Source of the DNA: Corynebacterium sp. | GTDB taxonomy: Bacteria > Actinomycetota > Actinomycetes > Mycobacteriales > Mycobacteriaceae | Reading direction: 5' to 3' | NCBI RefSeq assembly: GCF_030532325.1 | Contig: NZ_JAUNLS010000009.1 | Location: forward strand, 1 to 64,000 | Length of the DNA stretch: 64,000 nt | Shown: positions 20,693 to 25,805 of the stretch, piece by piece | Numbering within the stretch: the stretch's first letter is position 1 | Layout of the letters: each line of letters begins with the position of its first letter | Notes under the pieces: model-generated | The model's input: the letters and a program-made list of their open reading frames with translations, nothing else | The model's database searches: none | Told to the model about the DNA's origin: nothing | Position numbers and translations under genes: made by a program

Positions 20693-22783
20693 ATGGCGCT
20701 TAAAGGCCGCAATCTCCTGTCCACCATGTTCTCTTCCTCCCGTTCCAGCCTGACCTGCACCTACAAGTGCGGCAACGCCTGCTTCGGCGAGTGTGACAAC
20801 ACCTCCGATAACGCCTACTTCGGTGACCAGTTCTCCCGCCGCAGCGCCCTGCGCGCCGGCGGCCTGAGCGTGGTCGCCGTGGGCGGTTCCTACGCCCTGG
20901 CCGCCTGCTCCTCCGCGGAGGAGACCACCCCGGGTGCCGCGACGTCGGCAGCAGCGGGCTCCGAGGGGGCCGCGGCAAGCGATGCGAAGTCCGCCGAGGG
21001 TATGAACTTCGAGCCGGTCAAGGCCAACACCGAGGACAAGGTGGTCATCCCCGCAGGCTACGAGCAGTCCGTGCTCATCGCCTGGGGCGACCCGGTGATC
21101 GAGGGCGCGCCGGAGTTCGACGTCAACAACCAGAAGGCCGCCGACGCCGAGCGCCAGTTCGGCTTCAACAATGACTTCGCCGGCCTCATCGAGCACCCGG
21201 AGGATAAGGACCGCCTGGTGTACGTGTGCTCCCACGAGTACACCACCGAGCCGATGATGTTCCCGGACTACGACCCCGATAACCCCACCGAGGAGCAGGT
21301 GAAGATCGGCTGGGCGGGCCACGGCCACACCATCCTGGAGGTCTCCAAAGTGGAGGGCACCGGCGAGCTCAAGCGCGAGTTCGGCCCGCTCAACCGCCGC
21401 ATCACCGCCACCACCCCATTCAAGCTCACGGGCCCGGCTAAGGGCTCCGACCTGGTCAAGACCAAGGAGGACCCCAAGGGAGAGACCGTCAAGGGCACCC
21501 TGAACAACTGCTCCGGCGGCATCACCCCGTGGAACACCATGCTCTCCGGCGAGGAGAACTTTGACCAGTACTTCGCTGCTGGCGACGTCAAGGATGAGCT
21601 GGCTAAGAAGTCCCTCAAGCGCTTCGGCATCAAGGACGAGGAGTCCCAGCGCAAGTGGGAGCGCTTTGACGAGCGCTTCGACGTGGCCAAGGAGCCCAAC
21701 GAGCCCAACCGCTTTGGCTGGATCGTGGAGATCAACCCGCTGGATCCGAACTCCACGCCGATCAAGCACACCGCGCTGGGCCGCTTCAAGCACGAGGCCG
21801 GCAACATCCACATCGCCGAGGACGGCACCGTGGTCTGCTACTCCGGCGATGACTCCCGCTTCGAGTACATCTACAAGTTCATCTCCACCAAGAAGTACGA
21901 GGAAGGCAACCTCGAGCACAACCTCACCATCCTGGATCACGGCACCCTCTACGTCGCGGTCATGGAGGGCAACTCCCCGGAGAAGGAGATCGATGGCTCC
22001 GGCGTGCTGCCCGAGGACGGCGCCTTCGACGGCTCCGGTAAGTGGGTCAAGCTGCTGACCTCCGATACGGAGAACAACAGGTTCGAGTCCCACGTGGACG
22101 GCATGAGCGCCGAGGAGGTCGCTGTGTTCACCCGCGAGGCCGCCGACAAGGTGGGTGCCACCAAGATGGACCGCCCGGAGGACATGGAGGTCCACCCGGA
22201 CACCCACAAGGTCTACGTTGCCCTCACCAACAACTCCTACCGCGGTGCTACCGGCGAGAACGCCGAGAAGAGCAAGGAGGGGCCGAAGGAGTGGGCACCC
22301 ATCAAGGAGAACAAGAACGGCATGGTCATGGAGATCGAGGATGACCACGCCGGTGAGAAGTTCACCTGGAATCTCTTCCTGGTCTGCGGCGATCCGGAGG
22401 AGGCCAACACCTACTTCGGCGGCTTTGACAAGTCCAAGGTCTCCCCGATTTCCTGCCCGGATAACCTGGCCTTTGATCAGCACCGCAACATGTGGATCTC
22501 CACCGACGGCAACGCGCTGGACTCCAACGACGGCCTCTACGCCGTGACCACCGAGGGCCCCACCCGCGGCGAGCTCAAGTGCTTCCTCACCGTCCCGGCC
22601 GGTGCCGAGACCTGTGGCCCGATCGTGGACAACGACCGCGTCATGGTCAACGTCCAGCACCCGGGCGAGGCTGACGACGCCGTCTTTGACAAGCCCACCT
22701 CCCACTGGCCCGACGGCGACGACACCACCCCGCGCCCGGCCGTGGTCGTGGTGTGGAACAAGAACGGCCAGATTGGCATGTAA
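20693..22783 (+). CDS. phoX: PhoX-family alkaline phosphatase, Tat-exported
   Basis: 696 residues. A cysteine-rich leader (CTYKCGNACFGEC, residues 22-34) typical of actinobacterial members precedes a twin-arginine motif (SRRSALRAGG) and a hydrophobic stretch ending AACSS. The export signal therefore lies unusually far in, and lipid attachment is possible. The body is the DUF839/PhoX beta-propeller with acidic metal-binding segments (ENFDQYFAAGD, GNIHIAEDGTVVCYSGDD, EDMEVHPDTHKVY). PhoX enzymes bind calcium and iron and release phosphate from organic esters outside the membrane. Phosphate-starvation control is likely but no PhoR box was identified. Confidence 0.88.
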   Translation: MALKGRNLLSTMFSSSRSSLTCTYKCGNACFGECDNTSDNAYFGDQFSRRSALRAGGLSVVAVGGSYALAACSSAEETTPGAATSAAAGSEGAAASDAKSAEGMNFEPVKANTEDKVVIPAGYEQSVLIAWGDPVIEGAPEFDVNNQKAADAERQFGFNNDFAGLIEHPEDKDRLVYVCSHEYTTEPMMFPDYDPDNPTEEQVKIGWAGHGHTILEVSKVEGTGELKREFGPLNRRITATTPFKLTGPAKGSDLVKTKEDPKGETVKGTLNNCSGGITPWNTMLSGEENFDQYFAAGDVKDELAKKSLKRFGIKDEESQRKWERFDERFDVAKEPNEPNRFGWIVEINPLDPNSTPIKHTALGRFKHEAGNIHIAEDGTVVCYSGDDSRFEYIYKFISTKKYEEGNLEHNLTILDHGTLYVAVMEGNSPEKEIDGSGVLPEDGAFDGSGKWVKLLTSDTENNRFESHVDGMSAEEVAVFTREAADKVGATKMDRPEDMEVHPDTHKVYVALTNNSYRGATGENAEKSKEGPKEWAPIKENKNGMVMEIEDDHAGEKFTWNLFLVCGDPEEANTYFGGFDKSKVSPISCPDNLAFDQHRNMWISTDGNALDSNDGLYAVTTEGPTRGELKCFLTVPAGAETCGPIVDNDRVMVNVQHPGEADDAVFDKPTSHWPDGDDTTPRPAVVVVWNKNGQIGM

Positions 22784-22865: not shown

Positions 22866-24572
22866 ATGAACTCTCTTATCCTCGTTTTCATCGGCGTGGC
22901 CATGATGGCCGCCGGCTATCTCTTGTATTCCCGCTTCCTTGCCAGCAAGGTCTTCCAGCTCTCCGAGGGCTACTCCACCCCGGCGCACACCATGGAAGAC
23001 GGCGTGGATTACGTCCCCACCAACAAGTACGTGCTGTGCGGGCACCACTTCACCTCCGTGGCGGGCGCGGCCCCCATCATCGGCCCGGCCGTCGCGGTGA
23101 TCTGGGGCTGGCTGCCCGCCTTCCTCTGGGTCACCCTCGGCACCGTCTTCATGGCCGGCATGCACGACCTGGGTGCGCTGTGGGCCTCCCAGCGCCACCG
23201 CGGCCAGTCCATTGGCTCGCTGTCCGGGCGCTACATCGGCAAGCGCGGGCGCAACCTCTTCCTGGTGGTCATCTTCCTGCTGCTGCTCATGGTCAACACG
23301 GCCTTCGCCGTGGTGATTTCCAACCTGCTCATCGCCACACCCTCGGCCGTGATCCCCACCTGGGGCGCCATCGCCGTGGCGCTGTGCGTGGGCCAGGCCA
23401 TCTATCGCTTCAACTGGAACCTGCCTCTGGTATCCGTGGTGGGCGTGGTGGCGCTCTACGCGCTCGTCGTCATCGGTGACCGCTTCCCGGTGGTCCTCCC
23501 GGAGACCGTCTTGGGTATTCCGGACAACGGCGTATGGATCATCCTGCTGTTCATCTACGCCTTCGCCGCCTCTCTGCTGCCGGTGTGGATGCTGCTGCAG
23601 CCGCGCGATTACATCAACGGCCTGCAGCTCTTCATCGGCCTGGCCATCCTTTATGGCTCCTTCCTCATCACCCGCCCGGAGATCACCGCCCCGGCGCTGC
23701 GCGAGGACGTCCCGGACGGCACCCCGTCCATCTTCCCGCTGCTCTTTGTCACCATCGCCTGCGGCGCCATCTCCGGTTTCCACGGTGTGGTGGCCTCCGG
23801 TACCTCCTCCAAGCAGCTGGACATGGAAAGCGACGCCCGCTTCGTGGGCTACTTCGGCGCCGTGGGTGAGGGTCTTTTGGCCTTGGGCACCATCGTGGCC
23901 ACCACCTCCGGTTACAAGACCATCGCCGAGTGGGAGCAGGTCTACTCCGAGTGGAATGCTGGCGGCGTCAACGCCTTCGTGGAGGGCGGCGGCCGCCTCA
24001 TCAACGAGGGCCTGGGCATCCCCACCTCCCTGTCCGCGACCATCCTGGCCACCATGGCGGTGCTCTTTGCGGCCACCACCATGGACTCCGGCGTGCGTCT
24101 GCAGCGCCTCGTGGTCCAGGAGATCGGCGAGATCATGGGCGTGCGCATCGGCGCGCTGCTGGCCACCTTCATCGCGGTGGGCGTGGCCTTCGCTCTTACC
24201 TTCTCCGCGGGCAGCGACGGCTCCGGCGGCATGACCATCTGGCCGCTGTTTGGCACCACCAACCAGCTCATGGCTGGGCTGAGCCTGGTCATCGTCGCCA
24301 TCATCCTCACCCACCTGCGCCGCCCCACCTGGCCGGTGGTGATCCCGCTGGTCTTTGTCACCGCCATGTCCCTGTGGGGCGCTGTGCTCCAGCTCAAGAC
24401 CTTCTACGCCTCCCAGAACTGGCTGCTGTTGGGCATGGACATCATCATCCTCATCGCCGCCATCTGGGTCATCGTCGAAGCCATCGGCGCCATGAGCCGT
24501 GCGCGCCGCGAGGAGCCGGTGGTGTGGTCCGATAGCGATACCGACGCTCCCCTGCCCGCCCATGTGGGATAG
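22866..24572 (+). CDS. cstA: CstA-family carbon starvation transporter
   Basis: 568 residues with about 15-16 hydrophobic segments. The family signatures are GHHFTSVAGAAPIIGPA near residue 58 and GFHGVVASGTSSKQLDMESDARFVGY in the centre. CstA and BtsT of E. coli import pyruvate, and CstA is also linked to peptide use; pyruvate or a related small acid is the likely substrate. GGAG is 6 nt before the ATG. The 3' end overlaps the next gene by 11 bp. A possible GlxR/CRP half-matched site lies at 22836-22851. Confidence 0.93.
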   Translation: MNSLILVFIGVAMMAAGYLLYSRFLASKVFQLSEGYSTPAHTMEDGVDYVPTNKYVLCGHHFTSVAGAAPIIGPAVAVIWGWLPAFLWVTLGTVFMAGMHDLGALWASQRHRGQSIGSLSGRYIGKRGRNLFLVVIFLLLLMVNTAFAVVISNLLIATPSAVIPTWGAIAVALCVGQAIYRFNWNLPLVSVVGVVALYALVVIGDRFPVVLPETVLGIPDNGVWIILLFIYAFAASLLPVWMLLQPRDYINGLQLFIGLAILYGSFLITRPEITAPALREDVPDGTPSIFPLLFVTIACGAISGFHGVVASGTSSKQLDMESDARFVGYFGAVGEGLLALGTIVATTSGYKTIAEWEQVYSEWNAGGVNAFVEGGGRLINEGLGIPTSLSATILATMAVLFAATTMDSGVRLQRLVVQEIGEIMGVRIGALLATFIAVGVAFALTFSAGSDGSGGMTIWPLFGTTNQLMAGLSLVIVAIILTHLRRPTWPVVIPLVFVTAMSLWGAVLQLKTFYASQNWLLLGMDIIILIAAIWVIVEAIGAMSRARREEPVVWSDSDTDAPLPAHVG

Positions 24573-24819
24573 GCTGCGCGCCCTCGGCAACGGCCTGGAG
24601 GAGTTCTACAAGGCGCCCTACCGCGCCACCTTCGCCCGCGCCCAGCGCGAGGAGGAGGATCTCTTCTTCCTCCTGGTCCTCTCCGAATCCCTCGGCATCC
24701 CCAACCCGGCCAGCTTCTACACCATGGAGCTTCTGCCCTTCATCTACGAGGATTTCCACGCCTGGCACACCCGCATGGGCATGGAGAAATCCCCCTTGGA
24801 AGGAATCTCATGCTGCTAG
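24562..24819 (+). CDS. Small protein ending in Cys-Cys, CstA-linked (cory-CC-star type)
   Basis: 85 residues, ATG 24562 within the end of cstA. It is a soluble helical protein (MWDRLRALGNGLEEFYKAPY..., EDLFFLLVLSESLGI, PFIYEDFHAWHTRMGM) whose last residues are Ile-Ser-Cys-Cys directly before the stop. The E. coli genes cstA and btsT are followed by YbdD and YjiX, also small and also ending in Cys-Cys and needed for transport; this gene holds the same place although overall sequence differs. Corynebacterial proteins with a terminal CC are known as the cory-CC-star family. Its last codons overlap the start of the ArsA-like gene. Confidence 0.85.
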   Translation: MWDRLRALGNGLEEFYKAPYRATFARAQREEEDLFFLLVLSESLGIPNPASFYTMELLPFIYEDFHAWHTRMGMEKSPLEGISCC

Positions 24820-25805
24820 CGCCCAGCCCCGTAATGTTCTTCGGCGGCAAGGGCGGGGTGGGCAAGACCACCCTAGCCACCGCCACTGCCCTCGCGCTGG
24901 CCGAGCAAGGCCACGAGGTCACGCTGGTCTCCACCGATCCGGCCCACAACCTGGGCCACCTATTTGGCACCACGCTTGGCGACGATCCCACGCCCCTCAC
25001 CCCGCACCTGCGCGCCATCGAGATCGATCCGCAGGCCGCCACCGAGGCGCACCTGGCGCAGGTGGGTGACTCGCTGCGCCGCTTCCTTCCCGAGCGCCTG
25101 CACGGCCAGGCCCGCAAGCACCTGGACCTGGCCCGCCAGTCCCCCGGCACCGCGGAGGCCGCGCTTGTGGAGCGCATCGCCACCTTGGTCAGTGAGCATG
25201 ACGCTGGCCAATCCGCAGCAGGCGGCTCCTACCTCATCTTCGACACCGCTCCCTCGGGGCACACCGCCCGGCTCATGGCGTTGCCGGAGATCATGGCCGC
25301 CTACACCGACGGCCTGCTGGCCCGGCGCGATAAGGCCGATAAGTTCGCCGACCTTGTCCAGGGCATGTCCACGTCCGGGCGTTCCTCCGGTGCGGCCACA
25401 GCCGCCGGCCCGGTGGAGCGACGCAACCAGGAGATTCGCTCCACCCTCTACGCTCGGCGCACCCGTTTTGAGCGCCTGCGCGCTGTTCTGTCCTCCGCGC
25501 AGACCACCTTCCATATTGTTCTCACCGCCGAGCGCCTGCCGGTGCTGGAGTCCACGGAGTTCTACCAGGAGCTCACCTCCCACGGCATCCGGGTGGGCTC
25601 GCTGCTCATCAATAGGCGCACTCCTGCCGAGGCCGGCGAGTTCCTCGCCGCCCGCCGCGCCGCCGAGGACTCCGCCCTAGAACTGCTGCGCTCGCGCCTA
25701 GAAGAGCTGCCACCCACCTCCGTGGTGGAAATCCCCTGGCTGCCCTATGAGGCCAGCAGCCTCGAGGCCTTGCGAGAGCTCAGCGCACGGGTCTGCGCGG
25801 GCTAG
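24810..25805 (+). CDS. ArsA/Get3-like P-loop ATPase
   Basis: 331 residues. It has the deviant Walker A KGGVGKTT at residues 14-21, switch I DPAHNLG, and switch II DTAPSGHT with the TA(P)-x-GHT signature of the ArsA/Get3 clan. The ATG at 24810 lies inside the terminal SCC-stop of the preceding gene in another frame (10-bp overlap), so translation is coupled. No arsenic genes are nearby. By context it probably serves CstA and the Cys-Cys protein, as the GTPase YjiA accompanies btsT-yjiX in E. coli. It ends in a 4-bp tail-to-tail overlap with the panE-like gene. Confidence 0.88.
   Translation: MLLAPSPVMFFGGKGGVGKTTLATATALALAEQGHEVTLVSTDPAHNLGHLFGTTLGDDPTPLTPHLRAIEIDPQAATEAHLAQVGDSLRRFLPERLHGQARKHLDLARQSPGTAEAALVERIATLVSEHDAGQSAAGGSYLIFDTAPSGHTARLMALPEIMAAYTDGLLARRDKADKFADLVQGMSTSGRSSGAATAAGPVERRNQEIRSTLYARRTRFERLRAVLSSAQTTFHIVLTAERLPVLESTEFYQELTSHGIRVGSLLINRRTPAEAGEFLAARRAAEDSALELLRSRLEELPPTSVVEIPWLPYEASSLEALRELSARVCAG

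Follow-up and report, generated by a model that had tools for sequence, protein, structure and literature searches.

The DNA examined here is a 64,000-nucleotide window on the forward strand of contig NZ_JAUNLS010000009.1 from Corynebacterium sp., within which we consider three closely packed genes on the plus strand: cstA (22866..24572), encoding a CstA-family transporter of the short kind with 568 residues; a small gene (24562..24819) for an 85-residue protein ending Ser-Cys-Cys, the CC-star protein, which is probably CstX; and a gene (24810..25805) for a single-domain ATPase of the Get3/ArsA fold with 331 residues. The first two genes overlap by 11 bp (24562..24572) and the last two by 10 bp (24810..24819), where the bases ATGCTGCTAG read Cys-Cys-stop in one frame and Met-Leu-Leu in the other. 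The small open reading frame runs from an ATG at 24562 to a stop codon at 24817-24819 and its product ends ISCC; that of the ATPase starts with an ATG at 24810 and its stop codon ends at 25805. A mechanical list of open reading frames also holds a GTG start at 24499 for the small frame, giving 106 residues, and the 11-bp figure thus depends on the ATG at 24562 being taken as the start. The genes, their overlaps and the Ser-Cys-Cys end agree with a preliminary description of this DNA. We propose, with moderate confidence, that the three products work as a single CstA transport system: the small protein would link the transporter to a dimer of the Get3-like ATPase, with its thiol tail as the working end. 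The three-gene set itself is neither corynebacterial nor new, the association having been published in 2010 (Castillo and Saier, 2010; PMC2963123).

Profile searches place each protein in a family. The CC-star protein is a member of NCBIfam NF041419 (cory-CC-star), with 132.7 bits against a cut-off of 80 over profile positions 2-80 of 80 and residues 7-85 of the 85-residue form, and it carries the C-terminal Cys-Cys-stop that we read from the name of that family. It matched no Pfam family at E values up to 1, PF04328 (the YbdD/YjiX family, DUF466) included. CstA exceeds the gathering cut-off of PF02554 (440.9 bits versus 27) and lies far below that of the pyruvate/proton symporter equivalog NF011590 (216.1 bits versus 1188). 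The ATPase exceeds the cut-off of TIGR00345 (TRC40/GET3/ArsA; 203.6 bits versus 135), alone among three matches in the genome, and this one-domain protein lies below that of the arsenical pump-driving family TIGR04291 (141.3 bits versus 650). No match to Acr3 (TIGR00832) was found in the whole genome to which the window belongs, ArsB not having been searched for. No solved structure was related by sequence to the CC-star protein at E values up to 1 or to CstA at up to 0.1, and the only match for Klebsiella YbdD was a weak one to a zinc-finger protein (E 0.014). Viral contigs held no relative of CC-star or YbdD.

In the ATPase the P-loop GGKGGVGKT (24843..24869), at residues 12-19, the Asp of the SxDP motif and the DTAPxGHT residues are invariant in 40 aligned rows. 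In the window this Asp is Asp43 (24936..24938), within the switch-I-type motif STDPAHN, and we take it to be the counterpart of Get3 D57. The fold predicted by AlphaFold2 (AF2) is Get3-like: in a ranking of solved structures, Get3/TRC40 chains come first and ArsA follows closely, and D57N is named in the title of a PDB entry among the matches. The CxxC motif, presumably a feature of Get3 in eukaryotes and archaea, is absent from all 40 aligned ATPases, that of the window included, and no Cys is conserved, no alignment column having Cys in more than 4 of the 40 rows. The preliminary description held that this nucleoside triphosphatase (NTPase) differs in class from that of the BtsT-YjiX-YjiA set and that, with no arsenic genes present, an ArsA label would mislead. 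The profile and predicted fold bear out the first point; the second, that the label misleads, is supported too.

The three genes travel together. We searched 121 Corynebacterium genomes and joined profile matches by coordinates; CC-star matched in 42, CstA in 78, PF04328 in 38 and TIGR00345 over its cut-off in 45. The short CstA, CC-star and ATPase genes are adjacent in all 42 CC-star genomes, each CC-star gene lying after the short CstA and before the ATPase, and among the 121 genomes there was neither a short CstA without CC-star nor a solitary CC-star. The PF04328 genes, 38 in all, each lie behind a long CstA. Three genomes (G206, G211 and G275) have an ATPase and no CC-star; their matches lie two side by side in one frame of about 600 residues, as expected of a two-domain ArsA. 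We also collected 137 loci (30 from the genus, 6 from the order, 3 from plasmids, 80 from GTDB, 17 from the phylum, one of these below the NF041419 cut-off, and 1 further locus of the actinomycetotal family f30), which are not independent, some being identical and the GTDB 80 being the best matches to a Bacillales sequence. The ATPase gene follows in 137 of 137 loci and CstA precedes in 134, the remaining 3 being at contig ends. The small and ATPase genes were thus not found to occur often without cstA, the finding that the preliminary description had set against its view of them as locked together, and that view holds across genus and loci.

The unit reaches well beyond the genus. A GTDB scan from the Bacillales sequence gave at least 566 CC-star relatives; the best 80 of these are nearly all Bacillales by title, with two titled Pseudomonas and Chryseobacterium, and have the ATPase in 80 cases and CstA in 78, the other two being contig ends. 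The three genes also occur on alphaproteobacterial plasmids (Pseudochrobactrum, Paracoccus), on a Cytobacillus replicon and in other Actinomycetota; in the phylum sample CC-star matched at E 0.01 in 24 of 296 genomes, 17 of them over the cut-off, the window's own included. In Cytobacillus spongiae a hypothetical open reading frame of 95 residues lies between cstA and the CC-star gene (L048:5889-6176). Partnerless CstA genes were seen on two haloarchaeal plasmids and one Butyrivibrio plasmid, where the stretch examined showed neither CC-star nor YbdD nor an ATPase. Haloarchaeal relatives of CC-star, on Haloferax volcanii rings, matched below the cut-off; NCBI presumably uses 'halo-CC-star' names, on which no paper was found in the open-access literature. 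The passages cited here from a study of Haloferax volcanii CstA (PMC6104027) do not mention partners.

On either side of the set in the window lie a phoX-like gene upstream of cstA (20693-22783) and a convergent panE-like gene that shares the last 4 bases of the ATPase gene (25802-25805), and we therefore take the unit to be three genes. Promoter and terminator scans gave nothing above shuffled sequence.

Two conserved features of the small protein lie near its end. Cys84-Cys85, the final two residues (24811..24816), and both His of His66-x-x-His69 (24757..24768) are invariant in 81 aligned rows, and all 137 loci have the Cys-Cys end and a His-x-x-His (HxxH) near it. Among 124 unique CstX tails, picked by a profile of the first 63 residues, 115 have both motifs and the other 9 neither, one of the nine having been counted by script as HxxH through an unaligned HEEH. 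No transmembrane stretch is evident, the highest 19-residue hydropathy mean being 1.39 in 123 CC-star proteins and 1.74 in 8 CstX of the doubled modules described below. A comparison of 105 CstA rows for group-specific Cys and His showed C299 (with one exception) and H306 to be common to all CstA groups and so uninformative on CC-star. The HH60-61 pair of CstA is altered or gapped in four CstAs of doubled modules and present in three partnerless ones.

The enterobacterial CstA-YbdD and BtsT-YjiX-YjiA systems also place a small Cys-Cys protein behind the transporter. Local hhalign alignment of 123 CC-star sequences against 28 of DUF466, both sets chosen by tail patterns, gave a probability of 17% over the last 9 columns (shuffled and reversed controls 0.2-3%) and, with doubled CstX added, 13% over 17 columns; the global alignment gave 0.2%, with 0.9% for the reversed control. 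Homology of CC-star to YbdD, which we also sought with small alignments in hhalign, was not detectable beyond the tail. Alignment of the tail by itself does not establish common descent, and the small protein is, in line with what had been supposed, not detectably YbdD/YjiX.

The CC-star and YbdD modules replace each other and are nearly exclusive in two groups. In the genus 40 genomes have CC-star only, 36 YbdD only, 2 both and 43 neither (Fisher 1.2e-6), and in the 39 genomes of family f30 the counts are 8, 22, 0 and 9 (Fisher 4e-4), kinship being ignored in both tests. This pattern suggests similar functions for CC-star and YbdD. In E. coli, deletion of ybdD lowers pyruvate uptake to 20% (PMC5847655). 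The parallel with btsT-yjiX-yjiA drawn in the preliminary description is looser than claimed: a yjiA-annotated GTPase gene does follow the YbdD/YjiX gene on a Klebsiella plasmid, whereas no NTPase gene was found behind cstA-ybdD in the 7 actinobacterial loci, of 10, whose downstream reading frames were scanned (six on the opposite strand, one trigger factor).

The ends of the f30 PF04328 genes are unusual. Of 22 (L136, L141, L142, L144, L148 and L204-L220), 21 end Arg-Cys-Pro-TGA with an immediate second stop and one (L206) ends Arg-Cys-Pro-Cys-stop. In 19 of the 21, CCGGTCGG stands between pairing bases, as a hairpin loop, no more than 45 bases downstream of the double stop; in that interval one of the others has CCGGTTCGG and one CCGGGCGG. 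As a control, CCGGTCGG stands at that place in 1 of 12 DUF466 loci of the phylum sample ending Arg-Cys-Cys. An automated stem count covered 18 f30 rows and misplaced the loop in 3. Members of DUF466 in Campylobacterales end Cys-Sec (PMC4607533), and single passages elsewhere are cited for such ends (PMC13188914, PMC9312934); the f30 ends are probably Cys-Pro-selenocysteine, a variant of these. No Rfam SECIS family matched in the 5 loci tried of the 21 found. selA is present in 5 of 5 Sec-type genomes and also in 9 of 15 others, and is thus not discriminating. The genome of the window has, outside the window at G000:C12:2389-3648, a homologue of selA that passes the cut-off with 415 bits, and its organism may decode selenocysteine. 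All 8 CC-star genes of f30 retain Cys-Cys.

A further variant is a doubled module, complete in three genomes (G493, G526 and G356), with a CstA, two CstX paralogues and two ATPases; a fourth genome (G353) is alike but cut by a contig end (loci L184 to L187, L184 being cut). hhalign relates the doubled CstX to CC-star with 97% probability (E 1e-10). The first ATPase of each of the three complete modules has SVDP; the second has STNP, with Asn for Asp, and TAN in place of the TGH of switch II. If an ATPase dimer is partnered by CstX, one would predict two CstX beside an Asp/Asn pair of ATPases; the doubled modules would be accounted for by a dimer split between an active and an inactive subunit, each with its own CstX.

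We propose, on these grounds, that CstA would act as the membrane transporter and CstX as a dedicated adaptor, small, helical and cytosolic, that keeps a Get3-fold ATPase dimer attached to it. Nucleotide-driven opening and closing of the dimer would gate or energise uptake, of pyruvate or a related small acid or peptide, and the flexible Cys-Cys tail, perhaps with the His-x-x-His of the last helix, may be the working contact with CstA or with the ATPase, through a thiol or a metal thiolate. Formation of the complex, the dimer, coupling to ATP, the role of the tail and the substrate are what we infer from the linkage of the genes, conservation of Cys-Cys, exclusivity of the two modules, the effect of deleting ybdD, the motifs and fold of the ATPase, the doubled modules and the linker proposal of Castillo and Saier. 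Several observations weigh against this reading. The E. coli CstA functions with YbdD, and the cited passages name no ATPase gene as its part (PMC5847655), which implies that ATP is not intrinsic to CstA transport. Neither paralogue of the doubled CstX has a Cys-Cys end or an aligned HxxH, so the tail is not required by every CstX. Three genomes, G212 and G249 of the genus and G485, have both modules. CstX is absent in 2 of 26 CstA-ArsA pairs, and for Thermococcus kodakarensis two CstX and one ArsA are listed, a mismatch in copy number (PMC2963123). The AF2 model of the CC-star protein is poor (mean pLDDT 66).

Among the alternatives, we regard as the strongest, though clearly less probable than a transport system with a coupled ATPase, that the ATPase serves in assembly or targeting, as Get3 does for tail-anchored proteins: it would receive CstX or CstA after synthesis and deliver it to the membrane, translational coupling serving hand-over and ATP having no part in transport. 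The Get3/TRC40 chains at the top of the structural ranking and the overlap of the small and ATPase genes in the genus favour it; the lack of an evident transmembrane stretch in CC-star, the absence of the Get3 CxxC from 40 of 40 ATPases, the non-overlapping genes of most Bacillales loci and the YbdD-type CstAs with no such gene in the loci scanned all argue against. It is less likely still that CstX is a small metal-binding subunit, with two His and two terminal Cys as ligands, into which the ATPase loads metal. Metal loading is a role proposed for YjiA-type GTPases, and the yjiA-annotated gene of the Klebsiella plasmid would fit, as would the joint presence or loss of HxxH and Cys-Cys among the 124 tails. 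However, the doubled rows form one clade in the CstA tree and so count as a single gain or loss, conserved Cys are lacking in the ATPase, and a YbdD tail that can carry selenocysteine would be unusual for a plain metal ligand. A wider form of our proposal, which we consider unlikely as a whole, would have the unrelated CstX and DUF466 converge on a chalcogen-pair tail (Cys-Cys, Cys-Sec or Cys-Pro-Sec), with CstX coupling the tail to a Get3-fold ATPase dimer to make an ATP-driven or ATP-gated importer, and with the doubled branch splitting the dimer into a catalytic and a non-catalytic subunit, each with its own CstX, and discarding the thiol device.

Two further explanations concern how the locus arose, and both are refuted. 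The Cys pair could be a by-product of coding, imposed by the overlap ATGCTGCTAG with the start of the ATPase gene, which lies at the Cys codons, at the identical -10 position, in all 36 loci scanned (30 from among the 42 CC-star genomes of the genus, and 6 from the order); yet in 62 of 83 Bacillales and plasmid loci every start codon of the ATPase frame lies beyond the stop (the other 21 have an earlier one, in 12 cases within the last 12 bases), and all 83 end Arg-Cys-Cys. The pair is kept even where no ATPase start overlaps it and is therefore conserved as protein, which leaves the by-product explanation with next to no probability. The set could also have been put together independently in Corynebacterium, as the preliminary description supposed, and a small protein with no detectable relation to YbdD beyond the tail would suit that origin; we now give it hardly more credit than the by-product. 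The three-gene unit is found in Bacillales, other Actinomycetota and Alphaproteobacteria, and in a CstA tree built from 37 rows out of the 105 collected (GTDB rows thinned, two short rows dropped) the 19 CC-star CstAs, from several phyla, fall on one side of one branch with support 100/100, while 12 YbdD-type CstAs, Sec-type included, are on another (100/100). The CstAs of the window and of G212 join two alphaproteobacterial rows (100/100), apart from other actinobacterial rows; branches near the doubled and partnerless rows are long and their placement is unsure. A CC-star clade that crosses phyla, with the window beside alphaproteobacteria, points to transfer of a ready-made three-gene cassette.

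The papers cited here do not explain why transporters of the CstA family for pyruvate or peptides need a tiny Cys-Cys partner. Natural experiments, namely the probably Sec-ended YbdD and the Cys-less doubled CstX with its one Asp-less ATPase, make the question testable. The annotation 'ArsA family ATPase' meanwhile hides a non-arsenic class, with at least 566 CC-star relatives and an ATPase behind each of the best 80 of these.

The three-gene set resembles several known systems. Its ATPase shares the family profile, P-loop, switch motifs and predicted fold with Get3/TRC40 and ArsA, and differs from Get3/TRC40 in the missing CxxC and from the arsenical ArsA in having one domain where that has two. 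CstA-YbdD and BtsT-YjiX-YjiA of enterobacteria (PF04328, DUF466; NF033934, KCU-star) resemble it in a CstA-family transporter followed by a small Cys-Cys or Cys-Sec protein; they differ in that this protein has no detectable homology to CC-star beyond the tail, that their CstA belongs to another clade, and that the NTPase gene is absent, as in the seven actinobacterial loci, or encodes a GTPase. The name of NF041419 suggests Corynebacterium, whereas the best 80 of at least 566 loci are nearly all Bacillales. The set is also like the operons of Castillo and Saier (PMC2963123), found in bacteria and archaea, with a CstA, a CstX of about 90 residues and a single-domain ArsA homologue of about 330 residues, and with no arsenic genes in the passages cited here. 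Those passages count 26 CstA-ArsA associations, 24 with CstX, and CstX never without CstA; the window's set agrees in gene order, in sizes and in this dependence. They list clusters with CstA from Oceanobacillus, Bacillus, Thermobifida, Brevibacterium, haloarchaea and others, report that some organisms have ArsA genes and CstX genes in pairs, and call the CstX of archaeal cluster 14 single-TMS (one transmembrane segment); a Cys-Cys end, HxxH, a comparison with YbdD and a corynebacterial example are not among what they report. Other open-access literature on CstX, CstA and ArsA, searched by listing, yielded no CstX. Context, size and shared genera such as Oceanobacillus make CC-star the probable bacterial CstX, and the same authors argued from trees that the proteins co-evolved and put CstX forward as the coupling between CstA transport and ATP hydrolysis of the ArsA type.

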